A stretch of DNA of 64,000 nucleotides from Hysterangium stoloniferum. Lineage: Eukaryota; Basidiomycota; Agaricomycetes; Hysterangiales; Hysterangiaceae. How positions within the stretch are numbered: the first letter of the stretch is position 1; the number at the start of each line of letters is the position of its first letter. A program made the translations under genes and the position numbers. This document shows, piece after piece, positions 25,673 to 51,528 of this stretch. Where the stretch lies: positions 1-64,000 of the forward strand of contig WHVD01000039.1 in NCBI GenBank assembly GCA_015178975.1, written 5' to 3'. A model generated the notes under the pieces. That model did no database searches. It was not told the DNA's origin and was given only the letters and a program-made list of their open reading frames with translations.

Positions 25673-25697
25673 TATTTTATAAACCCTATATACTAAA

Positions 25698-27902: not shown

Positions 27903-27989
27903 GTGACTTACAAAACATATCCAATGCTTTTCAGTTTCAACTTGTATAGCTTATACCCCAGTAGATAAAATTGTAAAAATCACTGAAAT

Positions 27990-30190: not shown

Positions 30191-30324
30191 GAGGATGCAT
30201 AATTGAAATTAGAAGAATCTTAGCTGTGAGAGTCCTTCTACTTATACTTTAGCACAGCATGATCACATGACATGTTGAAAAATATAAACAAGTGCAAACA
30301 ATCAACATTGTCATATGATTTTCA

Positions 30325-30470
30325 TGCAAAAGCCTGTCAGTTACAAAAGGTATCCAATGACCCCTCTCTATTAAAATATTCATATTGTTACCATATATGG
30401 ATATCACATAATGACCTTATGGTGCCTTGGACTATACATGATAGAGCATGTTGGCAAATATTGCTCATAT
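30325..30470 (+). repeat. Other arm of the inverted ~125-bp repeat pair
   Basis: Forward copy of the reverse complement of 27,990-28,113 (ACAAAAGGTATCCAATGACC ... GGATATCACATAATGAC). Confidence 0.65.
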
Positions 30471-31093
30471 TAGTTGGAAAACAAAGGCCAACTGGTTGTT
30501 TTCTCAAAAATTTGGATCATGTTTACCATTTCCACTCAATGGGATCATAAGCCTCTGCAACAGAATCCTGCACCCTCTCCTCAAACACCAAAACACTGAG
30601 TCCCATTGGAATTCAAGGTTGGAACCACCTTTTTGGAACCCCACTTGTAGAATTCACCTTCCTGGGAACCTACCCTTGGGTGCCTCTGACACTGGTGTCC
30701 ACAATGATAGTGACCTGACAACTCATTTTTAAGTGTTTTCTTTCATTAGCCATGCTCTTCCATTTCCATCCCAATGGCTTTCCATTATTCCTTGTATCTG
30801 TCCATTGTCTTATTTGCATTTCCTAATTCTTATTGTTTTATGTTTACCTTGTATATTCATCATTTTGATCCATTACTTGTTTTCTCCACTTCACTCTTCT
30901 TTCACTGTTCATGATCCCATCTTCAGAGCTCTGTCTCATTCCAAACCATTCTATTTTTTGTTTCCAACTTAGTATGCAGACTCCTCCTTGTATTGTTCTA
31001 TATTTCAAATATCAACTTAATTTACCACTGTCCCACTCTTAGTATTATCCCTACCCTTGTACCTTAGTCTTCAAGTTTGAGACTTAGACCATC
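30471..31093. other. No gene recognised
   Basis: Short plus-strand frames only (for example SHWNSRLEPPFWNPT near 30,600). T-rich from 30,730 to 31,030. No repeat of this stretch found in the window. Confidence 0.35.
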
Positions 31094-31809
31094 CTACAAC
31101 TTAGACTTCTTCCTGTGGCCTGCCAGGAACTCCTCAGAAACCCAGTCATTAACACAACCTATTCTTGCTCCAGAGCCTGAAGCGATTCCAAAAAAATGCT
31201 TGCAAGAGGCCCAGGTGAAACTGCGATCTTTCACCTGGTTTTTTTTTCCTCTCCATTTATGTTTTGGGGCTGTATCCATTGAGAAAATCCCACATCGGAT
31301 GGCAAAGAGACCCCCGAAGGATAACATAGGGGCTCTGCCTCCTCTCTAGGCTTGGACGAGCAGGATATGTGGAGTAAATGTGAGGATACGAGTGGTCGTG
31401 ATCGTGTAAGACTGGATCTTGTGGGACAGCAGCGGGTTTTACAGATGCTTCTCCGTCCGGTTGACTATTACCTTTTCTCCCACTTCCACTGCTATTGCTT
31501 AATTGCTGTTCTAGCGAGGCTCCGAGATGTTCTATGGAAAATTGTTGGCAGGCGGATGGATCGCTGTTCGAGACATTGAGTGAATACTGGTTATGAGACA
31601 TTTTGTACTCAAAATAAAATACATGCAATACTCCATTGACGAGAATAGTACCAATTTTCATAGTTGATTTCACTGAAGTTGGCATTTTTAGAGGTTGGAG
31701 AGCCCAATCGCCAGTCCATTGGTCTGCAAAAAATGGCTCCGGAGGTCTGGATGTCCAGGCAATAGTGATTGAAGCTCATGCAGATCTGCAGTTCATGGCC
31801 CAGCATCTC
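31094..31809 (-). CDS. Hypothetical minus-strand coding segment beside the giant transposon
   Basis: A 142-residue frame at 31,685-31,257 (MSHNQYSLNVSNSDPSACQQ, E-Q-Q-L-S-N-S-S-G-S-G-R, PDGEASVKPAAVPQDP) has ordinary soluble-protein composition, rich in Ser, Pro, Gln and His, as seen in disordered parts of fungal regulators. A second frame (31,327-31,094: APKHKWRGKKNQVKDRSFTW) may be a following exon. I do not recognise the family and exon joins are unresolved. The giant transposon inserted just upstream at TAA (31,810-31,812), so a longer gene may have been cut here. Confidence 0.3.
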
Positions 31810-31812
31810 TAA

Positions 31813-32720
31813 CACTGCTGTGGTGAACCCCTTTTGGAGCACCGCAAAATCCTTCCCAAGGAGATGAACTTTAATAAATGAATTTTATTGTGCACTAAAT
31901 CTTACTTAAAATAGACATTTTGAGTCACACAAGAGTGGAACTAAAGGTGACTATTAGGTTGAATTTAGTTTGTAAGTAAATATCACATCTAGTATTAATA
32001 TTGAACATGTCAAAATATACCCAAAAAATGACCTTTTATCAGCATTTTATGGTGGCATAAATGAGTCATTTTGAGACAACATTAAAGAGAAATAATAGTT
32101 GAAAATTAGATAGACTTTTGCAAGTTAATAAAGATAACATTTTGTACTTGTTTTATGGAGTATTTAAATCCTATTCCTAAATGTGTCCTTTAGTGAAGTG
32201 TTAAAAAAATAAATTTAGTAATCAGATTTTAGAATACATCAAAATGAGCTATTTAGTACATGGATTTAAAACAGTACAAGATGTTTCCCAAATTTAGAAT
32301 TTTGTGCAATCCAAAATTCATCGCATTCTGTGCGTGTCGCTTTGGAGACGATCTTCGCATGAACTCACACAATAAAAGTTGCTTGTTACCAATTGGGCGG
32401 CAAGATGTGAGTGTGAATATAACAAAAGAATTACTGGCAGGTGACACTGTTTGTTGATTGTACCGATGTATCAAATATGCAGTGTGACGATTCACCGCAA
32501 CATACCAATTGTACATGACAAATCGTCATACTTATCACGATATGCAATTAATATTCGTGTGTCACAGGTGATGAATTGCGTGTCACAGGTGATGAATTGC
32601 GTGTCACAGGTGACAAATCACATGTCACAGGGATGCATCGTGTGTCACAGGGTGACACATTGCATGTCATGGGGTGATGAATTGCATGTCACAGGTGATG
32701 AATCATGTGTCATGGGGGTG
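31813..32720 (+). repeat. Left terminal inverted repeat with subterminal array
   Basis: Matches 50,683-51,525 in reverse. At about 32,447-32,515 it has some 65 bp (GATTGTACCGATGTATCAAA ...) absent from the right copy but found again near 45,730. From 32,560 to 32,720 a ~21-bp unit, GTGTCACAGGTGATGAATTGC and variants, repeats about eight times. Confidence 0.93.
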
Positions 32721-32892
32721 ACACTTCATCACATGCAACATACATATCATCGTCATGACCCTTGCTCAAATGCACCAGTTATCAGGAGGCACGCTCCCAA
32801 TGGGGTGTAGTACCTCACTGGTTGAAACACAAGGATGTGAGGCTCAACACCATAAAAGTGTGAGCTGAGAATTTCATCAAATTGGCCAGCAT

Positions 32893-33465
32893 ATGGAGCA
32901 ATATGAAGGCAAAAAACGATGTGTCGTCATTTGTGATGGGTCAGTTCATCCATACCCGTCCTGCCAGAGACTGATCCAAGCTTACATCATTAGCTATTTT
33001 GAGCAGTTGAAGAAGGCCCAAGAGTATTTACCACATTTCATTCGCTGCAAGGACAACAGACTTATGATTATGGCTGGTCTATATGATTCAACTCTGTATT
33101 ATCATATTGTCAGGTTGGTGTTCACCTTTTAAATTATTCTTTAGGCACTACTAATGAACTGTGGACCTTCACCGTCGTTACAACTGATGCTTCAGAAGCA
33201 TTTTCCTGGTTGCATGACAGACAACCTGTGATTTTATCTTCCACTGGACAGCTAGAAGCTTGGCTGGACACAGATAAGGGCTGGCACTCGGGTCTAATTG
33301 GAATTTTGAAGCCAGGACATGGGAAAGACCTGGAATTGTATGTAATACATATTTCAGTGCCCTGTTCTATCCAAATCTGACCAGAACTCTTTCTTCTTCC
33401 AAAGTTACTCAGTGTCAAAAGAAGTTGGGCACGTAGGAACGAATTCTCCAGTGGGGACGGTGTAA
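32893..33465 (+). pseudogene. SRAP-domain (HMCES/YedK-type) gene fragment, 5'-truncated
   Basis: SRAP proteins crosslink to abasic sites in single-stranded DNA through the N-terminal cysteine. Here the reading begins mid-domain: KRCVVICDG, then LPHFIRCKDNRLMIMAGLYD, then after a short gap ELWTFTVVTTDASEAFSWLH, DRQPVILSS, GQLEAWLDTDKGW, GLIGILKPGHGKDLEL, and finally SVSKEVGHVGTNSP with stop at 33,463-33,465. The LHDRQPVIL histidine motif is kept; the first ~80 residues with the catalytic Cys2 are absent, and the ExW part (normally GYYEW) is not visible. The gaps fit introns (one only ~31 nt, unusually short). It lies 170 bp inside the left repeat. Captured host gene copy, probably non-functional. 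Confidence 0.8.
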
Positions 33466-33656
33466 GTTGGTGTGCGGAGTCGGATGTAGCTACATGTGTC
33501 CTCCCACCAAAATTCCTCATACCCATGTAGCTCACTTGGCACTTCATAATTCCATAGCATAGTTTAGTGGGGACACCATGCCCCTGGCCACAGTTAGTCC
33601 TTGTCACTTGAAGCAGGATACAAATATATTATTAAAAAAAAGTAGCTGCATGTGAT

Positions 33657-33986
33657 GCAGAACGTCACTGGCACCTAACCATGACCGCAGCCTGGCAATG
33701 GTCTATTCTTCCTACCCACCCCCGACTCCAGCATTCACTTATGCACTGGCAATGTAAGGCTTCAGTGTGCCTGCAGCTGTCGTCAACTGCTAGCAGGATC
33801 TCGGGCTCTTCCTCGGGCTTCGGCCCAAATTTCCACTCTTCATTCGACCATCATACCAACCACCATCTGGCCTGCTCCCTCTCAATTCTCTCGTAGATAC
33901 TATAGCAGCTATGCTCTATACGATGCTACGGAACCACTATGTATCTTAGTTATGCGATGTGGTATATAAATGTATTAAAAATAAAT
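33657..33986 (+). mobile_element. Short non-LTR element (SINE or truncated LINE) with long target duplication
   Basis: Flanked by AAGTAGCTGCATGTGAT (ending 33,656) and AAGTAGCTGCACGTGAT (ending 34,008), one transition apart and preceded by A runs, a duplication of about 20 bp. The 330-bp body is C/T-rich with no frame. Its 3' end CACTATGTATCTTAGTTATG, then CGATGTGGTATATAAATG and an A-rich tail matches the 3' end of the LINE at 6,273-8,407, so the LINE machinery probably mobilised it. Confidence 0.85.
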
Positions 33987-34161
33987 AAAAAAAGTAGCTG
34001 CACGTGATCTATTTTTTGTATGATGTTTCGGGATGTATGACCTATTGTGCTTTCTTTTTTTTTTGGCCTACATTAGGATCTATTGTCTACTGCTATTATT
34101 CCTTTACAGATAAATACCATATGCAGCAAGCTTGTAGCTCTCCAGAAACAATTACCTTTTC

Positions 34162-37100
34162 ATGCCTGCCTGTAATTGTGAATCACATGGCTGTAAGGGA
34201 AAAAATTTCACTCTTTGCACCTTCAACAACCACGAGCGTGAAGATAAGAGGCAAAATTTCCAGCAGGCCTTTACTAAGGCCACCCAAGTTTGTGACAAGC
34301 ACGATGACGACATTGCAGCCTATATCTCCTCCCTGACACTATCTGATAATGTGACTGGAAGCAATGCCACCCCAGGGGGTCACCTCTGGTCCCTTTCAGA
34401 TCAAGATGTCACACTATTGGAAAATGGGATGGGAAACAACACTGCCCCAGGTGGTCATCTCTGTTCCCGTTCAATGGACTCAACTTGCAGATCTGATCCT
34501 GTTCAAACATTGTCCCACCATTCACCACTCAGTGACACACTCTCCAAACTTCGCAGTATTGAGAAGGACCTCAAATCATTGACTTCAGTTGTCAGGCCTC
34601 AAAACAAATCTTTTTTTCCCCTCATTGCGGGACGATATATTCCCATTGAAGTCTGCAATATTGGCTGTTCGCGTACTCCACACTCACCTCTCCTTAGTCA
34701 CCAATCAAGTGACTTCTGTTTGTGAAACCAAGGCCACTATCAATGACCATCTAACCCCCTTCCTTCAAGAGCTCATGGATGGCAACGCATCATGGAACAA
34801 GAAAATGAAACTGTTACCTGAGGTCAAGGAAACCATCTCTACTTACGACACAAGTGAGCTTCTTCCACCAGCATGCTATTCAAATATACTAATCCAGTCC
34901 TCTAGCTCACCATTTTGAGGATACCTTACCCAATGTCGACCCGATCATTCAAGTCTCCTTGTTTACTATGGTTGCCCTCCAAGTAGTCCTCCATGTCAGT
35001 CGTCGTGGTTGCCATTTCCTTCTCTTGATGATTCGGTACATCATTCAACTCTCCATGACTCATAACAAATGTAACATTTCCCCACAAAATGAAGAGTTTG
35101 TTGCCCACTTCCCTGCTGATCCAGACTCAGCCTCAAAGAAGTTTGCTCTAGATGGAAAGGAAACAATATATGCTGTCTGCCCACAGACCCAAGGAGGATG
35201 GTCACACTTTATTGAATATACAAAATTTTACTGAATAATCCTCATATTTTCTAAGTGAGTCTATTCCTTCTGGCCATGACAACTTATTCTACGAGTTTAT
35301 ATTTAATTACCTGAAATTTCATCTTTAAAATATGCATGTCCTTTTAAAATATACACAAATGATATAGTTACACAAGATTATTTGGGTCAACCTAGATTAT
35401 TTGGGTTAACCTAGATCATTTGGGTTAAACAAGATCATTTGGGTTAAACAAGATCATTTGGGTTATGACTTAATCTTTGGGTTATGATGTATTCTGTTGT
35501 ATACAAGCAAACTTTCAAATATATTTCATATAATTTAAATTTAGTTGGTTTAGAGAGTTAACCAGAACTATCTGGGGTACCAATCCCCATTGTGCAATTT
35601 ATTCCAAAAGAACAATCTACAGACAATTGTTTGACTAAATTTTGTCAGATATAGGATAAATATAAATATTTTTGCATTCTTCAGAGTGATACCTAATCAA
35701 CTGAATTTGATTAAATATTAATTTTACAACAATTAATATAAATATATATACTTTAGTGGATAAATAATTTTTAAAGTTTTGGGTTATCCTCCCAATGTCA
35801 CAAAACTTATCCACCAATTTTCTACAAGGACTCTTCCATCCCAGTTTACCCCAAATACTGTATCTACACAGAGTTTTCAGGAGGTCCTGAGTGTGGAACA
35901 CATCTGACTCGCCCTTGTGTATTTGGCAATATTAGTGTGGAGGTCCCCATCAAGTGATTCATATTCTTCAGTTTTAAGGACTTCGTATCTGGACTTCTTT
36001 CACGTCCTGGGTTTGAAGACCAGATGGATAATCCACAGACATTATTTGAAGGACAATTTCTTCGAAGTTTCAAGGACCCTAATGGACAACCCTTCCACTC
36101 GACCATCCAAGTAGGGCACTATTCATTCAGCCTTTGCGTCAACTTCTTTAATCCTTTTATGAACAAGCAAGCTGGAAAAAAGAGTTCCATTGGCATCATA
36201 TCTGTTGTATGCGTCAATATTCCTCCTTCACTGCAATATAAAGCAGAAAACATGTTCCTTGCGGGTGTTATTCCTGGTCCGAATGAGCCTCCCCTCACAG
36301 CAATTAATCATTACCTCACACCTAATTTGCGAATTCCAGTCCTTTTGGGATACCAGCATTCGATTTTCACAAACATACAACTATCCTGAAGGACGTCTAG
36401 TACAATGTGCCCTCATTTCGGTCATATGTGACCTTCTTGCCACACGAAAGACTGCAGGCTTTGCTGCATGCAGCCACAAGCACTTCTGCTTGGTTTTCCA
36501 CTGTACACAATCACACCAAGGGTATGGTGATACTAATTACCATAGCTGGAAGCGTAGGACTGATGCTGATTGTCAGAGTGCTGCTGAGTCATATTGCCAA
36601 GTGGCTACCCCGGAATCCAGGTTGAATGAGTTCAATAAAACAGGTGTTCGATGGTCTGAGCTTCTCCGTCTTCCATACTTTGATATTGCACACTGTGTTG
36701 TAGTTGATTTGATGCACAACCTATTCCTTGGGCTTATCAAGGAACATTTTAGTGGCATTCTCGGGATTGCACCTATGTGTTACTGTGAGAGCACAGTAAT
36801 CTCACTGGCCCTTGGTGCTCTACCTCCGGATCTATCTGAAAGTGACAGAAAGGGAGTGGATAAGCTTAAAAGGTGGCTTGAAGCACCAGCTGCAAAGGTT
36901 TTCTCACCTGACCAGGTAAAGGCGGTGGAAAAACTGAAGAGTGCCAACCTTAAGTCACTCAACTTCATCTGTAAACATGTTCAGTGTCCTCTCCCGACCA
37001 GGACGAGGAATTACATTAAGACGGACTATCCGAGTGCCATTCTTGATTGGGTGAGCCTTCAATTCTTTATATCTGGCTGACATCCTAAGTCCTTGATAGC

Positions 37101-38010
37101 GTCTCAAGCAAGTGGAAGACCATGAAACTGGTGTGGATACCTCTACACAGCTTGGTCACGTTCTCTCCCCCAAAGACATGAACAGAGATATGGGCTGACC
37201 TGGAGCATATAGTCATGCCTGCATGGATGACTTCCATTCCTCACAACCTCGGAAATGCTGCTCATGGCAAACTCAAAGCTGATCAGTGGTGTGCCCTCAG
37301 TACTATTCACCTTCCCTTGTCACTCATTCGTCTGTGGGGCTATGTCAACAGCGATGATCCTCGTTCAGTTCATTGCCAGAAAATCCTCAAAGTGACAATG
37401 TCATTGACCTCAGCAGTTGTCATTGCTACATTTCACACTATTTCCGCCACCCACGCCAATGCCTACTTACAGTACATGATTGACTACCTCAATGGCATCA
37501 AAGAACTTTTCCCCAAATACAAGCTTTGTCCTAACCATCACATGGCCCTTCACATTCATGAATACCTCCTGTTATTTGGTCCAGTCCATTGCTGGTGGAC
37601 ATTCCCCTTTGAGTGGATGATTGGAGTGTCTGGTTACTTCGAATTTTCCCATCTGTTGCCTCACATATTCGACATTTTCCAAGCACCATGGCAATGCGTG
37701 CATTATGATAAAGGTGGCAAATGATGCAAAACCCGTTCCTGCTAAAGTTGCACACATCATTAAATTTTCAATAGAAGGAACGAACAAGACTTATCTTGCC
37801 ATTCAATGTCACAAACCAGCGACACTCCATCACGATCCATTCTCCTGATATCCCATTCTTCAGGCTCAGCTATGGGAAATGCAGCTATCTAATCTCGAAA
37901 TCGTGATGCTGGGTCAGATATCATCACACTGTGCACAACTCCCAGTTGAAATCGGACATGAGAAGTATGTTGCTGTTCTTTCACTTTGTCGTATATGTGC
38001 CCCACCCACC
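34162..38010 (+). pseudogene. Tnp2-like (Plavaka/CACTA) transposase, decayed
   Basis: N-terminus MPACNCESHGCKGKNFT, the C-x-C-x3-C zinc start seen in these proteins. Later pieces: AVCP near 35,185; YCIYTEFSGGPECG (35,850); GLKTRWII/FEDQMDNPQTLFEGQFLRSF (36,015); EGRLVQCALISVICDLLATR and AGFAACSHKHFC (36,400-36,490); VRWSELLRLPYFDIAHCVVV then DLMHNLFLGLIKEHF (36,640-36,750); NLGNAAHGKLKADQWCALS (37,240-37,300); KLCPNHHMALHIHEYLLLFG then PVHCWWTFPFEWMIG (37,520-37,625); VPAKVAHIIKFSIEG ... CHKPATLHHDPF and ...VEIGHEKYVAVLSLCR (to about 38,000). Order and motifs are those of mushroom Tnp2-like transposases with the C-terminal DUF4218-type region. Several frame changes and a 0.66-kb insertion (35,190-35,848) disable it. 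Confidence 0.85.
35190..35848. mobile_element. AT-rich insertion in the transposase, with a 22-bp minisatellite
   Basis: Interrupts the transposase between AVCP and its continuation CPKYCIYTEF. The first ~120 bp (ATTGAATATACAAAATTTTA onward) recur at 23,893-24,010, so this is a dispersed repeat. From 35,375 to 35,482 a unit AGATCATTTGGGTTAAACA and variants repeats about five times. Ends not determined. Confidence 0.6.
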
Positions 38011-39272
38011 TGCCAATCACTGGACTAACAAATCAAAAATCTTCGGTATGTCTAGCCTCATGTTTGGCCACTGTAAAGTAATCACCCTTTCAATAAAATT
38101 GTTGCAATATGTCTCATTTAACCCCACCATCACACTTACCATCACTAAGCTTAAGGTCACCTATCTGAGATCTCATAGTTGATATTCTGGGACTGAACAG
38201 TACGGTTTTGACTCCGTCAGAGGACCCAAGGACTTTTGTTGCAAGTGCAGACTAGACGATTACTAGAAAGCATCACATTCTAAGTAATATATATCATGAT
38301 CACTCCGATAGTTAGTAGCTCCCCATACAGTACTCTTGTGGATGCGCTTGAGCACTAATACATGAGATCTCATGTTTCAACTACTCATCACATATGGTAA
38401 TGCATCGGATGGTGAAAAAGTATCTTTCTGGTTTTCAGGCTGTGGGAGACATATCTGGGCATCACCGCCCTCACTCAGTTTCCATTGCCGCACGATGAGC
38501 TCACATTCTAACCTTCCTAGCCACTCTAGAATGGTGCACTCAGCACAAATTATGATTTAATACAACTCTTAATTACTTAATAAGTTCGAGGTAGCATACT
38601 ATCTACAAGGCTATCTCACTATCATATTAGATGCCTTGGGTCTCTTGAGGCACGCAATGCCCCAGGGTAACCACTGTAATATTCTCATGCAGCTGAGCCT
38701 GTCTGGGGTTTACCTTGGCACGCTTATCTGGTGACATCCCATACTGCATGAAGATTGGCCATCTCCACCCTGCAAATTTCCGACTGACTTGAAAGTAGGG
38801 TATATAATAGAAGTCTGCACAAGTCCATCCAACTACTATAATATACATAAAGGGTATCACGATTACCAGCTAATTAGCATTCTCTGCAATGTCCCGTGAG
38901 TACGTCTCTGTCAATTGTGGACCCATTTCCATCTTGAATACCCTATGCAGGGTGTTATTGTCCATCAAATGGATCAGTTCCATAAAATTCACGGAGGGCT
39001 CGCTGTGTCGTGGCATCAATGCCTGAATAGTCTCAATATAACTTGGGTTATTGGTGGAAATGCATGAAGTGAATGTCTCATATTGCTAGTATCTATAACT
39101 ACAATCCATTCAGTGGAGTTTAATGTAAGCTTACTTCTTTTATAGGTGGAAGCCATGCATTTGAAGTCCAGATTGCGAGGAGTAATATTACAACAATGTT
39201 CATGAGGAACTGGAAGTTGGAACATTGGGGACATCTGTGTTCCACCCGAACAGGTTGAGTCTGATGGTAGAA
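38011..39272. other. Between transposase and WD40 gene: no gene recognised
   Basis: Only short frames without known motifs (for example 38,860-38,627 minus, MIPFMYIIVVGWTCADFYYI). It may contain the transposase 3' end and decayed cargo. Confidence 0.35.
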
Positions 39273-40630
39273 TTAATTTTCATAATGTGATGGCCTTTGA
39301 AGATTTACCAGTACCCTTTTTTTCCAGATACAAATATTGTATTTGCCTGTGGAGGCACCTGTTACAATAATTTGGCTACTCTGGGAGGATGTTGCCTAGT
39401 GCATTTGGTGAATAAACCTTTTGTGATCTCGTCAACATAGTCTCTTACCCCTACTGCTTGAATCATCTGTTCAGCACCCCCATGCCTCAGAATTTGTCGC
39501 AGTTTTCTGTTGTCAATACCAAAGACATATGCCTTTCCATGGTCACTCCCACAGACAACAGCTGTTCCCCTTTCAGCAAATACACCAGCTTTCACAAACT
39601 TCTTCTGCATGTGGACTTTGAATGTCCTCATCGGTGTGGTATGGTTGGCAGGGTAGAGGTCAAACCCATTACCCATATTATTGATTAAAACATTTCCACT
39701 CGAAGCACAAATATCAACATTTCCGCTGAGAAAGTTTCAAAAACACGATGGAAGATAAGAGTGAAATGGCAACTCACATTGCTGATTTAAGTGGACGATT
39801 GTACTTCTCGGTTGCTGTTTCAGTGTCTTTACAAGAACTATAATTCTGCTGTTGGTATTATTGATAGATACTAAGGTATACACTTACATCATCCCTGTTT
39901 CCATCACATATTCAATCACTGAAGCTCCTTCATCAGCAAAAGAGACAGCTTGGGGAATCACATCAGGGAGTGTATCCTCCCACAGTTTAGTGAGATGGGC
40001 ATGATCAACTTGAAAGACTTTGAGTTGCCCATAGTGGCTGGTGATGGCCAAATGTTGAGCTGAGGGATCAAAGGCAAAACTTTCTATACTATCATTAAGG
40101 GGAAAGATTTCTTGATGAATATACTCAGTGAAGTCTGACTGCACGGCATTAGACAACACAATAATTAGAATAGTTATCCACTTACTGCCTTGCGATTGTG
40201 ATGATACACCAAAAACTGTCCACAACCAGTTCCGAAACAAAGCCACTCTATTCCAGAAGGTGTGGCATCTCAGTTGATAAAGTTGATAGTTGTGATCTGT
40301 CCCCAATGCTGATTATTGTTGGCAAGTGTCTGAAAAAGGGTGTGTGTCTTCAAGTCCCATATTCGAACTTCTTCGTCGTCTCCTGATGTCATTTCATTTT
40401 TCAGTTAATTATATGAAACTAGGATATACAAACCTCCGCTGGCCAGCAGGGTAGAGCCGGTGTTGAATGCAAAGGCATTCACAGGTCTTCCATGTCCATC
40501 GAGAGAGGCAACTAACCGATAGCGCTGGCTGGCTTAGTTAAAATGAGGAAACCCTAACATGGCATAAGGTGCTCACATCCTCCGACTCAGGCAAGAAGGA
40601 ATCTATGAATGTTTCTAAGGCAGACACCAT
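39273..40630 (-). CDS. WD40-repeat protein gene carried inside the transposon
   Basis: Start ATG 40,630 (MVSALETFIDSFLPESEDVS). Then LVASLDGHGRPVNAFAFNTG, STLLASGGDDEEVRIWDLKT, TLANNNQHWGQITTINF, GIEWLCFGTGCGQFLVYH, DFTEYIHQEIFPLNDSIESF, AFDPSAQHLAITSHYGQLKV, LWEDTLPDVIPQAVSF, GNGFDLYPANHTTPMRTF, GTAVVCGSDHGKAYVFGIDN, and a last exon IIVTGASTGKYNICIWKK ending at 39,273-39,275. These are WD40 blades (GH...WD and SGxxDG/SDHGK forms). Similar proteins exist in mushrooms; function unknown, presumably protein binding. Introns start GTTTGT, GTAAGT and GTAAGA. I read one in-frame stop near 40,275, so the copy may be damaged or the exon join there is different. Confidence 0.65.
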
Positions 40631-40711
40631 CGATGAGTATCTTGAGTTTCTGATATGTTCTCTAGGTCTTTGCCTTCGCCTTTAAATCAGCTTTAAACCA
40701 TTATATGGTTA

Positions 40712-40913
40712 TTGTTCCATATTACTCAATATTGGTGCAGCATGTTAATTGTACTCATCGTGTATGCAACTAACTCAAGATGAATCAGAAATGGAACAAA
40801 ACACTCTTGTCCTTGTTCCATATTACTCAATATTGGTGCAGCATGTTAATTGTACTCATTGTGTATGCAACTAACTCAAGATGAACCAGAAATGGAACAA
40901 AACACTCTTGTCC
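40712..40913 (+). repeat. Tandem duplication, 101 bp x 2
   Basis: TTGTTCCATATTACTCAATA ... AACACTCTTGTCC occurs twice in a row (40,712-40,812 and 40,813-40,913) with two transition differences. It covers the start region of the following ORF. Confidence 0.95.
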
Positions 40914-41697
40914 CTTTAAGTGTTGCTGATATATTGACATTCAGGCCAATCCCACCATTCATGCAGCACACAATCACTCGACATCTACCACTCATCACCT
41001 CCTGGATCGAGTTCCAACTGTTGAAGGCTTCAGGTCGCCGACCAATAATTACACCTCGCATGGATTTTGCTGAAGAATGGGGCCACAATGAGGGAATGCT
41101 GACATCAATTGAATTGGATATGCATTCAGATATAGATTCACAAAACAAAGAATTAGATGATGTGATAGAAAATGATGATCGAGATAATGAAGACAATGGA
41201 ACCCTTGGAATCCTTGGAAAATGCAACAATAACAAGATTCCCAAACCACAGGGTGAACCTGGATGTCCTAACTCTGGTGGGTACAGTGTTGAGAGTGAGC
41301 TGCGTGGCTGGAGTCCTGATCTACTAGAGAATGTCACTGTGAGTTTCAGCATGCATTGTACACTTACTTCCTGTCTCTTAGCCCTCCCTAGCGATTTGTG
41401 AAGAATAAAGCAAATGATACACTGGATACCATGCAAAGTTACAAGAAACAGAAACCTGCTGACATTAATGCAATTTGTGCCTTGGTAAGTGTTAGATAAT
41501 CTATCATCATCCACTCATGATCCTCATGCCTGTATTGGAAGGCAAAAAAGCATTATCCAGTTGTCAATAAGTACGACAACTATTGGCCAATACGAGATAT
41601 GATCAAGTTGCATTTGAAGTATACATTAGGAATCTATCGGAAGCAAGGGGAAACCTTTCGCAAGGCAGTTCGGAATCATGGAACTCTAGTAAATTAG
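40874..41697 (+). CDS. Conserved basidiomycete hypothetical gene, first part
   Basis: Reads MEQNTLVPLSVADILTFRPI, PLITSWIEFQLLKASGRRPI, an acidic stretch (DVIENDDRDNEDNG), RGWSPDLLENV, then after an intron (GTGAGT ... TCTTAG) FVKNKANDTLDTMQSYKKQK, and after a second (41,486-41,541) AKKHYPVVNKYDNYWPIRDM, IKLHLKYTLGIYRKQGETFR to a stop near 41,697. The GW-P ... YP-x-x-x-YDNYWP-x-x-D-x-x-x-x-x-LKY pattern resembles mushroom proteins of unknown function often found near transposons. A 1.5-kb satellite starts 50 bp further on, and a matching partner ORF lies beyond it, so 40,874-45,616 may once have been one gene. Confidence 0.5.
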
Positions 41698-41749
41698 TAT
41701 CAAGCCATGTATAGTACACTGAATAGACAATCCAAGAAACAGGCAATAG

Positions 41750-43240
41750 AGACAGTTAAAATGACGAATAATATAAAAATGTGGCTAAACTACCAAATAT
41801 AGATACAATAAAGGTATAACGAAGGAGCATGCCAAATTTATTGTATTTCTAAAATGGGGACAAATAGGAACAGTAGGCAACTGACAGAACACATTGCATG
41901 GAAAGACGAAATGTGCAAACTGTTAAGTACCGTGTCAGGAACTTATTCCGGAACTATTGGAAAGTCACCGGGAAGTCGGGAACTGTCGGATAGGGTCAGG
42001 ACGTTGGCTTCAGCTTATGTGCTGCGCCTCTACGCAAACGCTCAAAGTCCTTAATTTCAGAGGTGAGACTTACAATGGAAGATACGGATATTCAGAGTTC
42101 CAAAGAGTTCCGAATATTGAGCGTACAGAAAGACGGAACAAGGAATAAGAAACTAAGTCAATATCAGATCTAAGGTAAAGTACAAATTCGCAGAAACTAA
42201 CATAAGTCTTCTCATTATTGTACTACAAACTGAGACCATAATAAGACGGAAACGGAAATATTCTTAAAACGGGAATACAATAAGACATATCGGGGAGACA
42301 ATATTCCGAAACAGGAATACAATAGACAAACGAGTGAATATTTGTCAACGGACAAATTACCAAATGTGGAACAAGGGGAGAATGCAGATGATATGGTAAC
42401 TATGATGTTCCGTAGTCGGAGATCAGAAGTTGGATATTGAAACATCCAGGAACAGGTCGTAACACAAACAGACAACAGAGACAAAAGCAATGAATAATAT
42501 AACAAGTGTGGCTAGACTACCAAACATAGATATAATAAAGATACAATAAAGAGGCACACTAGATTCTTTCCATTTCCAAAATAGGGACAAATAGGAGCAA
42601 CAGGCGACTGGGAGAATACATGGTACATAGAAATACAGAGAATGTGCAAACAGGCAGGGAATACAAATGTGATGAATAATATAAAAAGTGTGGCTAGACT
42701 ATCAAATGTAGATACAATAAAGATACAATAACAGGGCATACTAGATTCTTTCCATTTCCAAATTGGGGACACATAGGAACAGTAGGCAACTGGCAGAACA
42801 CATTGCATGGAAATATGAAATGTGCAAATGGGCAGCAGAGACAAAAGCAATGAATAATATAAAAAGTGTGGCTAGACTACCAAATGTAGATACAATAAAG
42901 ATACAATAAAGAGGCACACTATATTCTTTCCATTTCCAAAATGGGGACAAATAGGAGCAATAGGCGACTGGGAGAATACATGGTACATAGAAATACAGAG
43001 AATGTGCAAACAGACAGTGAAGACAAACATGATGAATAATATAAAAAGTGCAGCTAGACTACCAAATGTAGATACAATAAAGATACAATAATGGACACTA
43101 TATTCTTTCCACTTCCAAATTGGAACAAATAGGAGCAACTGTGACTGGCAATGCATATGCACAGAAATACGGAGAAATGTGCAAACCAGAGACAAAGTGA
43201 TAAATAGTATAAAAAATGTAGCTCAACAACAAAGTTGACT
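41750..43240. repeat. Satellite array, about 180-bp unit with alternating types
   Basis: The unit start TGAATAATATAAAAAGTGTG recurs near 41,772, 42,491, 42,673, 42,851, 43,032 and 43,204 (spacing 182, 178, 181, ~172 after removing the LTR). Two variants alternate: one with GGAGCAAYAGGCGACTGGGA, one with GGAACAGTAGGCAACTGRCA, giving a dimer-like order B-A-B-A-A'. A solo LTR (41,921-42,464) sits inside the first unit. The long hydrophobic minus-strand frames over this array are by-products of the repeat. Confidence 0.92.
41921..42464. mobile_element. Solo LTR, family X, in the satellite
   Basis: 544 bp, TGTTAAGTACCGTG ... GAACAGGTCGTAACA, with CAAAC on both sides (41,916-41,920 and 42,465-42,469). 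It is the CpG-rich relative of the decayed copy at 13,904/23,642. It contains GACGTTGGCTTCAGCTTATG near 42,000, the block shared between LTR families. Inserted after the satellite had formed. Confidence 0.93.
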
Positions 43241-43344
43241 CCTCCCCTAAGCACTAAGTCCTATAATTGACTTTAGAACAATTCTTCTTACAATGTTTTT
43301 ATTCACACGACTTTCTTCAAATGCAAAGTTAAACAGCAATATGG

Positions 43345-45616
43345 ATGTCGAGATGGGTTATGCAGGAGAGGTGGATAATGTTTGCTTCACTTGTTTCCAT
43401 GCCCTGCTATCAGTTACTGACCTGGTCAAAGGCACTTCCTGGCAACTCTGAAGGTCATCAGGAGATCAATGTTGAACAGAATATTGGAAATGCTGGCTTG
43501 ATAGCTCAGCCGCTTGTTCAGCCTTCTCATGCTACACTGACAGTGTCTCCAACTTATCTTCCAGCCCTGAGCCAACCATCCGAAGAAGCTATATCTTCTG
43601 CACCACAGAACATGTCACTTTTCATTGCAGGATATAATGTCGAATCAAATAGATTGCCTTCTAAACATCAACGGTTGGAATCGGCACCTATAGAAAATAA
43701 TAAGTCTTCACAGGTGAGACTACTTTCTGAAAACTTTTAATATATCTAAACACTAATGTTTGCAGGTGGTGGCAGCACAGAAGGTGCGACTAGTGATGCA
43801 AAATGATTGGCAAGATCGGCAACAACATGAAAAGTTTGAGCAGATGAAGAAAAGTGTAAGATTTGTCAATTTCCAATGTTCAAAGCTGACGAATAGCAGG
43901 TTGCTTGGCAATCCAAAACATTGAAGGAACTTCAAGCTCAATTAAATGACTTCAAGAAGCATGCAGAGAATGCAGAGAAGGTTGGTGAAGAGGCAACAGG
44001 GCAAGCCACTGAGGTGGAGCAGCAGGTGAGTGCCAGAAAGAAAAGCATTGCAAAGGTAATAGCTAACCTTTATTGCCATGACCACTAGGACAAAACAGCC
44101 AATCTGTCTGTGCCTGTGAATCAACACAGAGATCACATTAATCCACAAACTCTGGGTCTCTCTCAAAGACAATAGTTTATTAAAATAGGTAATGAGGAAG
44201 CCAGTGATAGTGATTTTGATATGTTCATCTATCAAGTAGCTACTAATACAGGGGCTAAACCAATGTCTCATGCAGGTTCCCTCTCTGGCTTTTATCCTCT
44301 ACGCTGATATTCATAGCATCTAGTCATCTGCTATTCTGAAGCCAATCCCACCCACAAGCTCAAAGGGATCCACAAGAAAACTTCCACCTCCACCTCCATC
44401 TATTGGCAACAGGCAAAAAAGTGGCACACAGCCTGGTCAAGGGAATACCCAACAAAGCTACTTAAACATGAGTGTTGAAGAGAAGTTAAACATCATACTA
44501 GAAAGCCTTCAGAAGGCACCAAGGATGGTCCCTAGACACAGAGCCAGATCGAGTGGATTCAAGGATCCTGTGGTAAGAGTGGAGAAAGGTGAAGGAAGGA
44601 ATAAAAGATTGGTTTGGGCTTTCCGTCTTCTCTAAAATGCATGCATTGACCAGTCGCAGGCATGGGTACGAAATCATATGCATAGCTTGATTGGTATTCG
44701 AACAACAAATGAGATACTCCTATTCAAAGATGAGCTATATGCTATTGACACAGAATTGCAGAAGGAGATGGCACTTTATGAAGATCATAAAAAAGATGAA
44801 GGCCCACAGCTCAAACAGATGAGGATAAATTGGAAGGTGGTCAATGGAAGATGGAACAAAGAGTTGTTCCTGCAGTTTCTTTCATATGCTGAAGAACAGG
44901 GTTATGCTGAAGGATGCATTCAAGATGCTGATGAGGATGAGCTGAGGGATATGTTTTATGCTCGAATCAATCGAATGGTGGGTGCCATCCACCTGAACCA
45001 GCCAAAGCCAAAGGAGGGACCTCAGCAAACTGAGAAGAGAATTCAAGGTCGCCATAAAGAGATGCTAGGTATGAATAGGATAAATGCTCAATGAAAAGAG
45101 GTAGGCATACTGATTGTGATGTGTCCAGCATGCTGACATTAAAGACAGCTCTTTCATACATGACTTGACACCATTACGGAGAGATTGCCTGATCCAGAAT
45201 TTCTGATTGAAGAGCTAAATGACGAGTCGAAAGCCTGGATCGATAACCACATGATTGTTGATAACCTTGGTGTTGAGGGACAAAGTTCTGATGAGACTGA
45301 TGAGGACAGTGATGGGGTGTACACTGTAAAGCGACTCAACTGGAGGAATAGGGAATTGATCAAAAGGTTAAATGGGGTGGATGCAGTGAGAAGGACTACG
45401 AACAAGTATGGCAATCGTCGACCAGGGACTGCACCAAGGACTTGCAAGAGAAATTCAGCAAGGGATTCACACCCAACAGCAAGGGCACCACCAACTGGAA
45501 AGCCAATCAACTTTTACAGTGAAGATTGGTATGTGGGGTTGACACAACAGGAGAAGATCGCACTCAAGGCAAAACCTGCATTGGAATTCTTGACATCACT
45601 AGATGATGATTATTAA
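43345..45616 (+). CDS. Conserved basidiomycete hypothetical gene, second part (coiled coil and SSDE box)
   Basis: Exons by eye: a Ser/Pro-rich first part (SRWVMQ ... PIENNKSSQ); coiled-coil VAAQKVRLVMQNDWQDRQQH and VAWQSKTLKELQAQLNDFKK after introns GTGAGA...TTTGCAG and GTAAGA...ATAGCAG; a Pro-rich part with SVEEKLNIILESLQKAPRM; then NHMHSLIGIRTTNEIL, MRINWKVVNGRWNKELFLQF, YARINRMVGAIHLNQPKPKE, KRIQGRHKEMLG; last exon LPDPEFLIEELNDESKAWID, QSSDETDEDSDGVYTVKRLN, KPINFYSEDWYVGLTQQEKI and stop 45,614-45,616. The SSDE-TD ... RLNWRN and NFY-x-x-x-W boxes recur in mushroom proteins of unknown function. Near 45,180 the reading seems to need a small frame change. No catalytic motif seen; likely nuclear or DNA-associated is only a guess. 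Confidence 0.55.
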
Positions 45617-45719
45617 TGGAGACATGCTAAGATACCAACTAGATGTTAGTAATCAAGATACCCTCTGTAGCATAGTAGTTGTATGGACTTACATGGAATT
45701 GCAATTACTGTCTGTTGTG

Positions 45720-46040
45720 CTACATTGATTGTACCGATGGATTGAATATGCAGCATGACAATTCACTACAACATACCAAGGTATTTTCTATGATGTACCA
45801 TGGTCTGAATGACAGGCTCACTATCATTGGGAGTGCACCTCCTGATAACTGGTGTGTTTGAGCGAGGGTTGTGATGACAATATATTGCTTGTGATGAAGT
45901 GTCACCCCATGACACATGATGCATCGCCCTGTGACACACGATTCATCGCCCTGTGACACGTGATTCACCACCCTGTGACAGGCGATTCATCACCCCATGA
46001 CACATGAATTGCATATCATGGTAAGTATGACCCATTTTCA
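45720..46040 (-). repeat. Internal remnant of a transposon end with subterminal array
   Basis: 45,725-45,780 matches 32,451-32,512 in the same direction, then 45,815-46,035 is the reverse complement of 32,535-32,800: CTCCTGATAACTGGTG, GATGAAGTGTCACCCC, five or six array units (CCCTGTGACACACGATTCAT) and GAATTGCATATCATGGTAAG. It is the inner part of a right terminal repeat lying 4.6 kb inside the present right end; the outermost ~600 bp are absent. Confidence 0.85.
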
Positions 46041-47265
46041 CCGATCGGGTGCCATCCAAGGTAAATGTCCCTCATAGCATTTCAGCTACTTCATACAAAT
46101 GCTATCTTTAGCAACATATCTAGGATTGGCTTTATATGCTGTATTACAACGCAGGCAATCACTCAACCTTTCTAACATGCCAATGCTCAAAGTATTCTTC
46201 AGGTTTGCTCCTCTAGTACTTTAATTATCACCCATTCAGTTGACCTGAATTTAGCCAGAGACAGGACAGCATATTTCTTCTGGTATAATAATCTCTTCCT
46301 TGTTTCCGTGTTACTGGCTAATAAACCATTCTTAAAGTATTTTGGGTTTGCCACTGCCATTATTTGGGAATACTCTAGGTGCTGATATCTCTCCCAAAGC
46401 ATTGTATGTCTTCAATCTACTCCTGATTAGATTTGGACAAACTTTGCCTCTACAGATCGCCGGGAGCTTGTGAATGTATCATCAACCACAAACAAACAGG
46501 ACATCTAGATAACTAATCATTATGACTAGATGGATCATATCCATCGTATCTGTTTTCGTATGTAATGTCATTTACTGAGAATGTCCATTTGACACTCGCA
46601 GCAGGCCAGTCGTATGATGCTTAACCTTAGGATGATGAATGACCCATCAGATGACTTGACATTGCGCGAGACATCTGGCAGTGATGATAATCGTTGTGAA
46701 TTCTCCACTATTCCCCCTGCTGGGTTAGTCTCAATACACCAAACCATCTGAACCAAGTCAGACAGGCTTTTGAGAGAGAAAAGACAGAAAAGATATAGCT
46801 CAAGCTTCATACTTGCATTGTTGTATCTATGCCACTTATGCCTCGTTTCACTTAACAAGCTGCTCCTAACAAGTGCACCACCCAACCGTATACTACCCAC
46901 CATTGGGTCTCAAGATTCTCGGGATTGCATTGCACGCATAGACGGCACGAGTCCATTATCTTATCACTCCCTTTGGTTCTCAGGCTCAGTAGTAGACTCC
47001 TAAACAGTAACTCTGGAAGGGAAAAACAGTAGGGGTAGCGGTATCCCCCTGATGAGAGCTTTCGTCGGCTCGAAACTGTTACAGTCCATTTCCCCTAACC
47101 ACCCTCTACCTTAGCTGACAAAGTTTGATCTTCAGAGACAACTGATTGTGGCGAGTGATAAGGTGGTGGTCTGCCCAGAGGTGCTCTGGTGGATGCTGGT
47201 GACCTTGCATTGCCATGGTCACCTGGCTAATGTCTGATTTGTGGTTACTGGCAGACTCAGTTAAC
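46041..47265. other. Cargo region, no gene recognised
   Basis: A minus-strand frame at 46,903-46,568 (LKSLSDLVQMVWCIETNPAG then GIVENSQRLSSLPDVSRNVK) has natural-looking composition and may be an exon of a captured gene I cannot name. Another at 46,402-46,199 (NPKYFKNGLLASNTETRKRL) is less clear. Confidence 0.35.
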
Positions 47266-47269
47266 AAAT

Positions 47270-47884
47270 TATCAAACACAGGTCTTCATGTCCTTCTGAA
47301 TCCGAGTCTGAATCATCAGGATCCAGCTCTTCCGATTCCGAATCAGAATCAGAATAAAATTCAAATTCAGGATCATCATCTGGTTCAGCCACACGATAAT
47401 CCCACTGCCAGGTGTATAAATCCTGCATAGAATGACTGTATACTGACTACTGGTCACATCAATCATGCATTTTTTTTGGCATATATTCTTTTTGTAATGA
47501 ATCCCGCTGCCAGGTGTATAAATCCTGCATAGAGTGAGTCATCTTTTGCCAGATCCACTGTAGGGAGGTTATGATTCATGGTGAACACTGGCTTATAGGG
47601 ATGGAATACACATGTCCACCAGTGATTAACACTGACACTACAAGCCCTAAACAGCAATGATACCACATAACCACTGGAACTAAACTCTGTGGAAAGAACA
47701 ACTGAATAAGCAGGCAGCTGACATGAAGTGCTAAATGTACCCTCCTGATCAACTCTGGCTTAAATTGTGCCACTCCTGCAATACCAATGCCAATTTTTGA
47801 GGTTCCGTATGCTGCACCAACCGCTATGATTTGATTCTCATCGGTCAGTAACTCAAGCTCAGTTTGACTTGGTGGCAATGACAT
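47270..47884 (-). pseudogene. Captured V-ATPase proteolipid (subunit c) fragment plus acidic tail
   Basis: Minus-strand exon [20 protein letters not shown] followed by KPELIRR, an intron GTACAT...CCACAG, SLVPVVM and [10 protein letters not shown], then DDSLYAGFIHLAAGF. These are the hallmarks of the V-ATPase c-ring subunit (VMA3/VMA11 type): the glycine-rich first half, PELI-x-x-SLIPVVM, and the FAGFVHLAAGL segment that precedes the proton-binding helix. Small indels break VVM...GLV, the N-terminal helix and the Glu-bearing last helix are missing, and the YAGFIHLA exon is present twice (47,530 and 47,425). Beyond it comes an acidic frame EPDDDPEFEFYSDSDSESEE of other origin. A transposon-borne partial copy of a host gene. 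Confidence 0.8.
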
Positions 47885-50682
47885 ACTGCCCTATAATCTT
47901 GCACAGCATCAGAAATTTGAGTGTTGGTGTGGGCTGTTAACTGTGATGAAGATGTTTATGGAGATGAAAACCTTTGGTGGACTAACCCATGCGTACTGCC
48001 AGGACTGTGGCTTGGATAGTGAGTTGATCTGCTCTCGAGCGTGACTTCCTGTCTGATAAATTTTCTTCATTAATAATCAGTGATTCTTGATGAAAAATAT
48101 TGAGGAGAGGAAAGTGGTCCTGATGCTTGGAGACGACCGCACCGATAGCTTCCAGGAGCTTCCTTAAGCTCGCTTGAACACTTGTTTACAAAATATCTTG
48201 TCATTCATTACCTTGATCAGTATTTGAAAGAAGTTCACCATTTTCATCATTTATGTGCTCCCAACCACCGGGTGGTTGAGGATAACTAGATAGATTGTTT
48301 CTGGTTATTTAGTCTCATGATCAAGCGCAATGGGGATTTCAGGCCACCCTCCTATTATAACCCAAATCTGGATTGGGCGCCACATGGTTTCAGTCTCTTT
48401 AAAGTAAACGCATATTTCTCACCTGGTCCTGGGTAATTGTTCTCACTAGCATGATGCCCATATGTATTAGTTAAGATGATGAAATGGCTTGGGCATGTCA
48501 TCAAATTTGAATATAGTCTGGCTATTTTTACCTTACAAACAAAATGAACCCGAGAGCGTGAATTCTGTAGATTTGCGCTGTATCCCTTTCTTTTTCTTCA
48601 ACTATTGGAGCTGATTGCTTCAGATATCTCAGCATAATGAAGTATGGTGCATTGTATTTTCTTGCAAGTAGTGTAACTCATGTCGCAAACTGTGGTAAAT
48701 ATGGGCTTGCAGCTGATCAGATTTTGACTACGTGGGATATTACTGAGAAATTGGACTCCAGCAGCCTAACGCTGCATGTATATTGTAAGAACCATTCATG
48801 AAGACCTGGCTAGATAAACAAGAAGTGTGACTACCTATCATCCTCCATTTGACCCAAATAGTTAATGGCAAATATAGATGAGAGGAAGGCAGTAATCTCA
48901 TATCAAGACCCTCACATGGTTCTGATTTTTTTTTTTTGTTATATTTGTATCCCACTTCAAGCAACAATGGCTAACTGTGGCTAGGGGGTGGAAAGGCCCC
49001 CAGAGAAACTATGCTACGGTGGTAAGAAGTTCCAAGTGAGCTTTGTGTCTATGATGGATTTTAGAGGGCTCAAGTCAGGGTGGGGACAGTGAAAGTTGGC
49101 ATACGGAGTCAGATGTAGCTAGAAGGAGAAAAAGAAAAAGAAGACCAAGAGAGGGATATGTACATCGGCCATGACGTTCAGGGATGATCTGTTGTGGAGG
49201 GATTGTGGGAGAGGTGTGGGGCGAGCGGGGAAGTCGGCTTCGCAATGGAGCCAGGTGGCTCTAAGGAGGTTCGTAAGGGCTCACGTGGTTCTGATACCTG
49301 GAGATGACTGGCGACTCCTGGGAATTGCCAGAATACTAAAACCACATACTCTCCCCATTCGTCTCTCATGAGTTGTCAAGGACATAAATTGAATGCTTTT
49401 GGATACCCAATTTCATGGTCAACGTAGTTAAATTTTCAGGGGAGCATTCTATATATTAACACACCTCTCTAGTTGCCTCTCCTGGTCTTTGCAACACAGA
49501 GATAACCAGATGACTCGAGCCTCTTTGAACTAAACATTAAAGTTGTGGGCAATCATTAGGAATCCTTTGCATAATGGAGCTTCCACCAGTACTGTTGAAG
49601 AAGACGGAATGGTATTTTGAGTTGTGAGTATGTTCAGAACATGTTATTGTTAGTTGCGTGGTTCAGACCCACTCATATGTACCCACCAGTACTTATCTGC
49701 ATGTTGGCAATCTACCACCGCCAGTCATTTGAGTTTAAGTCAGAGTCAGAGTTTGGTCACTCCTGTGTCTTTATATATATCTTCTATTCTAACAATTATC
49801 TATGTGAATAAATCTAGACTACAATGTGGCCCGACAGTGAGGGAGGCTTCAACCCATGATCAGTGATCGCCGAAGCTGACAGGTCGTGGAGCAGGCCAGC
49901 AGGTTTCCCTGCTGGGTCAACTGTTGATGTCCATGCAGCAAGACAATGGTGGATACTTCTGAGCCCCTTTTTTAGGCAGTTTGCCCTTCTCATTTTCCCG
50001 TTTGTGCTCTTTATCCTCCAAAATCTTATTGGCAGTTTGATGTCCAGTGGGCAGAATGTGATTTTGTTGAATATTTTTAGGAGTCTTAAAAGTATAAGGG
50101 CAACACACATTGTTGTACAACACTCACTACATGACCTTTATATACCAAATACCAAATTCAATCTCAGAATCAAACATCTGAGACAACATCGGAGTCTCGC
50201 AACTTCCATGGCTCGCAGTCTCTCAATAGATTTGGACATAGGATGTGCTCGTCATGGGTGTGTGTGGTAATGATATCATATAATGTGTTGTCTGTAACTT
50301 TTCATTACAAAAAGAACATATGCCAAAAAAACGCACAATCGATGTGACCAGTAGTCAGTATTCAGCCATTCTCATATCTCTTCAACTCTGATACCATTAT
50401 AAGTTAGATGCTATGGACAGACAAGTGGAAGGTATGGGACTGCACTTACAAAGGATTGAGTACTGAGAAGTAACAGTTCAACACACCGACATCTTGATCT
50501 GTGGACCAGGACCCACAACAACAAAATTGGGAGATTTAAAGTCACTCCTAAGAGCATGCATGCATTATGACTGACCCACCTGCAAGAGTGTCTGGGTACT
50601 TTTGTTGTGTAAGTCTTCTGAAGTTGTCATGTTGCCTGTGAACATTCAGATCTGACAGCCAACTTACCAATCGACTCCACCC
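47885..50682. other. Cargo region, mostly unassigned
   Basis: No confident gene. At 49,577 a plus-strand start MELPPVLLKKTEWYFEL followed by GTGAGT looks like a captured first exon. At 50,123-49,917 a minus-strand frame (HILPTGHQTANKILEDKEHK) is charged and may be another exon. 49,080-49,125 shares a ~45-nt block (GTGGGGACAGTGAAAGTTGG) with 33,452-33,498 just behind the SRAP fragment. Confidence 0.35.
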
Positions 50683-51525
50683 TCTCATGACACACGATTC
50701 GTCACTGTGACACGTGATTCATCACCCTGTGACACATGATTCATCACCCTGTGACACACGATTCGTCACCCTGTGACACGTGATTCGTCCCCATGACACA
50801 CGATTCGTCACCCTGTGACACGCGATTCATCACCCCGTGACACACAAATATTAATTGCATATCGTGGTATGACGATTTGTCACAATTGGTACCTGCCAGT
50901 AATTTTTTTGTTAATTCACGCTCACATCTTGCCGCCCAATTGGTAACAAGCAACTTTTATTGTGTGAGTTCGTGCGAAGATCGTCTCCAAAGTGACACGC
51001 ACAGAGTGCGATGAATTTTGGATTGCACAGAATTCTAAATTTGGGAAACATCTTGTACTGTTTTAAATCCATGTACTAAATACTATTTAGCTCATTTTGA
51101 TGTATTCTAAAATCTGATTACTAAATTTATTTTTTAACACTTCACTAAAGGACACATTTAGGAATAGGATTTAAATACTCCATAAAACAAGTACAAAATG
51201 TTATCTTTATTAACTTGCAAAAGTCTATCTAATTTTCAACTATTATTTCTCTTTAATGTTGTCTCAAAATGACTCATTTATGCCTCCATAAAATGCTGAT
51301 AAAAGATCATTTTTTGGGTATATTTTGACATGCTCAATATTAACACTAGATGTGATATACACTTACAAACTAAATTCAACCTAATAGTCACCTTTAGTTC
51401 CACTCTTGCGTGACCCAAAATATCTATTTTAAGTAAGATTTAGTGCACAATAAAATTCATTTCTTAAAGTTCATCTCCTTGGGAAGGATTTTGCAGTGCT
51501 CCAAAAGGGGTTCACCGCAGCAGTG
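50683..51525 (-). repeat. Right terminal inverted repeat with subterminal array
   Basis: Reverse complement of 31,813-32,720 with few differences. The array (CCCTGTGACACGTGATTCRT, about eight units) lies at 50,683-50,852, then the unique part, ending ...GGTTCACCGCAGCAGTG before the TAA duplication. Confidence 0.93.
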
Positions 51526-51528
51526 TAA

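Follow-up and report, generated by a model that had tools for sequence, protein, structure and literature searches.

A probable decayed CACTA/EnSpm-like transposon of 19.7 kb with unusually long terminal inverted repeats in Hysterangium stoloniferum

The question raised by positions 31813–51525 of a contig from the basidiomycete Hysterangium stoloniferum is whether this segment, which an initial annotation presented as a giant gene-carrying transposon of the CACTA/Plavaka type, is a single mobile element and, if so, how its long inverted repeats and its present contents came together. We examined the segment within a window of 64,000 nucleotides (the whole stretch analysed; GenBank assembly GCA_015178975.1, contig WHVD01000039.1, positions 1 to 64,000, forward strand), and the element is known here from this one locus. 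Our analysis indicates that the segment is probably one decayed CACTA/EnSpm-like cut-and-paste element, which in its present form may have been pieced together from related elements and does not seem to represent a new class of giant cargo carrier. The following features define its borders.

31813–51525, 19,713 bp: the element, starting with CACTG and finishing with CAGTG
31810–31812: left copy of the target-site duplication, TAA, directly outside the left end
51526–51528: right copy of the target-site duplication, TAA, directly outside the right end
31813–32443, plus strand: left outer terminal inverted repeat, beginning CACTGCTGTGGTGAACCCC
50891–51525, minus strand: right outer terminal inverted repeat

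The left terminus at 31813 reads CACTGCTGTGGTG and the right terminus, with its last base at 51525, reads CACCGCAGCAGTG. Direct reading of the termini thus bore out the proposal of CACTG ends flanked on both sides by TAA. Agreement of a 3-mer in this arrangement arises by chance in 1.75% of cases (200,000 random position pairs from the window), so that the TAA pair is weak evidence by itself, and for this reason all 6,523 pairs of CACT[A/G]..[C/T]AGTG termini lying 80–25,000 bp apart in the window were listed. With a cut-off of at least 20 matching bases among the 30 end bases, five pairs were retained.

31813–51525: 29 of 30 end bases, TAA duplication
31893–51445: 29 of 30 end bases, within the element's own arms, no duplication
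21331–21704: 29 of 30 end bases, TGG duplication
21331–40036: 20 of 30 end bases, no duplication
6225–9624: 28 of 30 end bases, no duplication

Only two of the 6,523 pairs combine this level of end identity with a 3-bp duplication, namely the 19.7-kb element and a 374-bp sequence at 21331–21704. A pattern of the terminus (CACTGCTGYGGTGAACCCC, up to three mismatches) matches twice in the window, both times at the ends of the element, against an expectation of 0.03. Coincidence of arm ends, terminal motif and flanking triplets led us to reject a chance inverted duplication as the principal explanation, and we regard such a duplication of the arms as much less likely than a decayed CACTA/EnSpm-like element. 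An empty site for this insertion would be expected to read ...CATCTCTAAGCTAAGCCC. When the flanks were joined in silico, a 104-codon minus-strand frame stayed open across the junction, along with five shorter frames, a result that decides nothing on the empty site.

The arms themselves are the unusual point of this element. In a global alignment they share 628 aligned bases with 18 mismatches (97.1% identity) and 10 gap columns, and 15 of these mismatches are transitions; the pairing found by BLAST spans 641 columns at 95.6%. Inward of the arms lie subterminal arrays, and the left side has in addition a short stretch of its own.

32555–32712, plus strand: left subterminal array of 21–22-bp units
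50688–50845, minus strand: right subterminal array of 22-bp units, in a stretch 87% identical to the left one
32443–32502, plus strand: stretch of about 60 bp between left arm and array, lacking a right-side counterpart

The presence of subterminal repeats close to both ends agrees with the initial annotation, which had further described almost identical inverted repeats of 0.84–0.89 kb. That length is about right, but near-identity is limited to approximately 0.63 kb, as the array stretches inward of the arms (about 0.2 kb on each side) are 87.1% identical (202 columns, of which 26 are mismatched, with CpG-decay changes at 11 of these). Positions 32454–32508 reappear at 45725–45779 in direct orientation with 85% identity. 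Inverted repeats of tens of bases are usual for CACTA elements, although not strictly defining, and here they are replaced by 0.63 kb at 97.1%. By comparison with the published elements cited here, the description of these repeats as unusually long is justified, as the soybean CACTA element Tgmt* has repeats of 13 bp (PMC2613891) and the Cryptococcus elements CNIRT6 and CNEST have repeats of 24 bp and 33 bp, respectively (PMC12810828), and it is repeat length that stands out, as the size and the extra genes have precedents in the cited papers. A search of the open-access literature found no report joining CACTA, long terminal inverted repeats and fungi.

The class of the element was assessed from its ends and from its internal coding remnants. 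Six frames of the element were scanned against Pfam in twelve short stretches, with stops read as X, at an E-value of 0.01. This detected four families (SRAP, WDR3 propeller, WD40 and Transposase_21), the weaker of which were seen because the stretches were shorter than the 15-kb frames of an earlier scan. The transposase remnant comprises a core segment and, possibly, an N-terminal one.

35958–37721, plus strand: transposase core, with tnp2-like and Plavaka-like matches in two frames
34138–35957, plus strand: possible N-terminal part of the transposase gene, made up of scattered short frames

The tnp2-like match at 36126–36323 (PF02992) has an E-value of 0.0015 and 18.2 bits relative to a cut-off of 28.6, and the Plavaka-like match at 36460–36750 (PF18759), in a different frame, has 0.0026 and 17.5 bits relative to 26.3. 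The reading frame appears to shift near 36.33 kb and there is an additional break, possibly an intron, near 37.08–37.18 kb. The scattered frames upstream may be the N-terminal part of the gene; no Pfam match was found on the plus strand of 33.9–36.1 kb at an E-value of 0.1. Judged by the catalytic motifs that we presume for this group, the first D appears to be replaced by N at approximately 36.14 kb, with the second D and the E apparently retained. One of the three transposase frames was searched against solved structures, giving no match. From the change of frame and the motifs, judged against presumed homologues, the transposase gene appears broken, with short introns as a possible contributor to the frame changes.

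Several results weigh against the interpretation of the locus as a CACTA/EnSpm-like element. Both transposase matches fall under the curated Pfam cut-offs, and the earlier scan, of two plus-strand frames over 31813–46813 (15 kb), gave no Pfam match at an E-value of 0.01. Neither did wider searches produce a relative: the 30-base end pattern had no exact match in viral contigs, two transposase pieces fitted 2 and 6 stretches of these contigs with none confirmed as a relative, and one of these pieces fitted 19 stretches in prokaryotic genome contigs, again with none confirmed; neither collection is fungal. By transposase, EnSpm and Plavaka are both candidates.

The assignment to a CACTA-type transposon is supported by the ends, the 3-bp duplication, the subterminal arrays and the internal tnp2/Plavaka-like remnant. 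EnSpm elements have CAC..GTG ends and 3-bp duplications (PMC12730594), and the element has CACT[A/G]..[C/T]AGTG termini of this CAC..GTG form, a 3-bp duplication (at its one locus) and arrays of 21–22-bp units, so that by ends and duplication it is classed as EnSpm/CACTA on sequence features. The label 'Plavaka-like' held in part. The element resembles Plavaka in its weak Pfam match and in the 2–3-bp duplications reported for that group, but the published Plavaka termini, CATCA..TGATG or TGT..ACA, are absent and EnSpm fits better (PMC12730594); Plavaka proper was rejected on the CACTG..CAGTG ends. A Kyakuja-Dileera-Zisupton (KDZ) element was likewise rejected, as duplications of 7–8 bp (PMC12730594), or 4–8 bp in Cryptococcus (PMC12810828), are expected in the published descriptions and only TAA agrees here.

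Among fungal elements, CNIRT6 of Cryptococcus neoformans is also of the CMC/CACTA type, with CACTG ends and 3-bp duplications, but it is approximately 7.5 kb long and active, with 24-bp inverted repeats and one transposase gene of about 6.9 kb (PMC12810828), whereas the present element has 19.7 kb, 0.63-kb repeats and an apparently broken constitution. In the same source, CNEST has 33-bp repeats and the Cryptococcus KDZ elements have repeats of 139–241 bp. The rust EnSpm families that carry TET/JBP genes share CAC..GTG ends, 3-bp duplications, a Plavaka-similar transposase and an extra non-transposase gene, which is TET/JBP in the rusts and an SRAP remnant in this element (PMC12730594). No TET/JBP domain was among the Pfam matches of the six frames, and a TET/JBP-carrying element was accordingly rejected. 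Outside the fungi, soybean Tgmt* is similar in size (20.5 kb), subterminal repeats, 3-bp duplication and tnp2 transposase, but has 13-bp inverted repeats and a plant host; because of this element, a size of 19.7 kb is not unique (PMC2613891). Red-alga CACTA families of 16–20 kb with 4–5 frames are cited in PMC6431247, and PMC8978399 describes plant CACTA elements in which subterminal repeats extend over several hundred bases and gene fragments have been captured.

Base composition is consistent with decay. The observed/expected CpG ratio is 0.39 in the element compared to 0.52 in the left flank and 0.57 in the right flank; this low value and the 15 transitions among 18 arm mismatches are as expected of methylated DNA, and CpG depletion agrees with methylation and decay of the element. 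The element is probably non-autonomous today. Its ends and subterminal arrays of 22-bp units would be recognised and bound by a tnp2-type DDE transposase, which would cut beside CACTG/CAGTG and insert the element with a 3-bp duplication, here TAA. Because its own transposase gene appears broken, the last move would have occurred either before this decay or through transposase supplied in trans by another copy.

The remaining contents of the element are as follows.

32780–33353, plus strand: SRAP (HMCES/YedK-type) pseudogene in three frames
39365–40515, minus strand: WD40-like gene remnant
42465–43138: tandem array of a 182-bp unit, 3.7 copies
44324–45613, plus strand: three adjoining open frames (103, 152 and 150 codons) with no Pfam match

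The SRAP pseudogene covers positions 53–96, 105–138 and 143–209 of the 214 in PF02586, in three frames; the best of these has an E-value of 2.8e-13, above cut-off, and the other two fall below it at 4.8e-4 and 0.021. The domain lacks its start, where the array and arm lie instead, and an in-frame stop lies inside the first matched stretch. In comparisons with solved structures, for which two of the three frames were tried, one frame had no match and the other had weak matches to HMCES chains (E 0.2) and dehydroascorbate reductase chains (E 0.05–0.06). The domain start is where the conserved second-residue cysteine of SRAP proteins lies, and a link between SRAP and oxidised methylcytosine has been reported (PMC3765255). 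In view of this link and of the TET/JBP genes found in fungal transposons of this group (PMC12730594), an SRAP gene beside a transposon end is of interest, although a truncated relic in one copy is a lead only. No paper joining SRAP domain, transposon, fungi and Tet was found in the open-access literature.

The WD40-like remnant has matches in one frame to WD40 (PF00400, E 3.3e-4, 40354–40515) and to the WDR3 propeller (PF25173, E 5.1e-5, 40306–40392), and weaker propeller matches in another frame at 39374–40099 (E 0.003–0.04), all below cut-off. This gene appears broken: its frames look interrupted, one of them by a stop that separates blocks which, judged against presumed relatives, would otherwise be continuous. 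No Pfam match was found at an E-value of 0.1 on the plus strand of 43.2–46.2 kb or the minus strand of 46.5–51.0 kb. The claims of several host-derived genes and of a giant gene-carrying element were thus overstated, given a truncated SRAP gene with a stop, an apparently broken WD40-like gene and the existence of a 20.5-kb CACTA element (PMC2613891). With regard to the traits of Pack-CACTA elements, the truncated SRAP gene may be a captured host fragment between CACTA ends, and in place of a complete lack of transposase an apparently broken transposase remnant lies inside.

A feature absent from the earlier description of the element, lying 5 kb inside the right end, bears on how this unit was assembled.

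45820–46067, minus strand: degenerate inner copy of the left subterminal region, in the orientation opposite to that of the left end
46068–50687, 4.6 kb: segment between the inner copy and the right array

The inner copy contains the array edge, the array and an adjoining piece reading as part of the SRAP gene, and is 84.3% identical to the left end (242 columns aligned, besides 14 gap events that add up to 117 columns); the outer 0.63-kb arm was not found beside it. No Pfam match was placed in the 4.6-kb segment (six frames, E 0.01; minus strand from 46.5 kb, E 0.1) and the segment has no similarity to the flanks of the element. It holds one copy of an inverted repeat of about 155 bp (33503–33655 and 48912–49068, 74%), beside which a 42-bp piece occurs in direct orientation (33451–33492 and 49080–49121). 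The right part of the element also contains a 73-bp inverted repeat at 47429–47501 and 50301–50372 (89%, about 2.8 kb apart), with no obvious target duplication by eye.

Judged by identity, the outer pair of arms (97.1%) appears to be young and the inner pair (84.3%) to be old. Transposition alone would not make the arms alike, so that some event of copying or swapping would be required. One tentative explanation is that the present right end belongs to a second, related element and that the unit is a fusion of two. At the right subterminal region of an older element, now at 45.82–46.07 kb, the tip would have been lost; a related second end lying 5 kb farther out would have taken over, making the 4.6 kb between them internal. 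This arrangement would be similar to the Pack-CACTA fusion model, in which two related elements lie next to each other, their end losses are complementary and the intervening DNA becomes trapped, but that model was described in Arabidopsis (via PMC13317346) and its application here draws on one locus at which only one lost tip is visible. We consider the fusion less likely than not. The difference in identity between inner copy and left end, on the one hand, and between the outer arms, on the other, supports a fusion, as does the 92% identity of the right array stretch to the inner one over 125 aligned columns, yet with 76 gap columns. A further step, by which the element grew through taking over a neighbour's right end and was subsequently mobile as a single hybrid, is rather doubtful. 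The following features argue against a fusion: the segment at 46.07–50.69 kb, in which no clear body of a second element is visible, has in common with other parts of the element only the repeat of 158 columns (74%) and the 42-bp repeat; a 4-bp insertion is common to the inner copy and the left end and absent from the right end; and the 55-bp piece adjoining the inner copy has the opposite sense.

Alternatively, the long inverted repeats may have arisen within a single CACTA element when one end was copied onto the other, whether as a terminal inverted duplication or through gap repair; the inner copy would then be a local duplicate. This variant, which retains a CACTA/EnSpm-like element and dispenses with the fusion, is plausible to the same limited extent. 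It would supply the copying event that arms of 97.1% identity call for, and it is consistent with the same kind of array in left arm, inner copy and right arm, with the 4-bp insertion common to inner copy and left end, and with the occurrence of a 374-bp CACTG foldback element in the same window. The fall from 97.1% in the outer 0.63 kb to 87.1% in the adjoining array stretch is harder to accommodate, although CpG-type changes (11 of 26) explain part of this drop.

It is unlikely, but conceivable, that two separate, oppositely oriented insertions (or truncated ends) of one CACTG-ended family frame unrelated DNA and that the 19.7 kb have never transposed together. In favour of this, the end is present in a third, inner copy, 3-bp agreement occurs by chance in 1.75% of random pairs and long inverted repeats occur elsewhere in the window, such as a pair with 100% identity over 378 bp. 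However, the arms stop together at CACTG/CAGTG with agreeing adjacent triplets, and a tnp2/Plavaka-like transposase remnant lies between them. Finally, a giant element of Starship-like nature, kept for the cargo genes that it carries, is highly improbable, and much less likely than a decayed CACTA/EnSpm-like element, since the size, the SRAP and WD40-like remnants and the report of Starships in the basidiomycete Tremella fuciformis (PMC13066641) are countered by a truncated SRAP gene with a stop, an apparently interrupted WD40-like gene and, as the initial annotation had noted, the absence of a tyrosine-recombinase captain among the four Pfam families detected in the six frames at an E-value of 0.01.

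The surrounding window contains further repeats and transposon sequences. The 374-bp sequence at 21331–21704 is a near-palindrome with CACTG..CAGTG ends, TGG on both sides and arms identical at 160 of 188 columns and, on these sequence features, is a small CACTG element of the foldback type. The window is not otherwise poor in long inverted repeats, as exemplified by the perfect 378-bp repeat at 27162–27539 and 29811–30188, with copies 2.3 kb apart; in the space between these copies, positions 28683–29196 are 93% identical to 59928–60445. A 60-bp inverted repeat at 6216–6274 and 9575–9634 (95%, about 3.3 kb apart) may represent another transposon. Tc1-type transposase domains (DDE_3 and HTH_Tnp_Tc3_2) were detected within the scanned stretches at 24.0–31.8 or 51.5–64.0 kb, and Pfam matches in 1–24000 were to a chromodomain-type Gypsy retrotransposon (reverse transcriptase, integrase and chromo) and an Nramp transporter. 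A 1.7-kb duplication has one copy on each side of the element (11862–13561 and 56629–58316, 88%), and cyclophilin-type domains, which are possibly the copies of this duplication, were found in both scanned sets of flanks.

Here we have described a probable CACTA/EnSpm-like element whose arms are unusually long among the elements cited above. If the proposed growth by takeover of a neighbour's end is true, the capture route described for Pack-CACTA elements in Arabidopsis would have a fungal counterpart, the inner end remnant would be a fossil of that event, and CACTG elements of this lineage would also form long foldback-like inverted repeats. The long arms would provide a test case for the copying of CACTA ends. 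Finally, a fusion of two elements, if it took place, would mean that a fungal cut-and-paste transposon can gain kilobases of DNA without a dedicated cargo enzyme.

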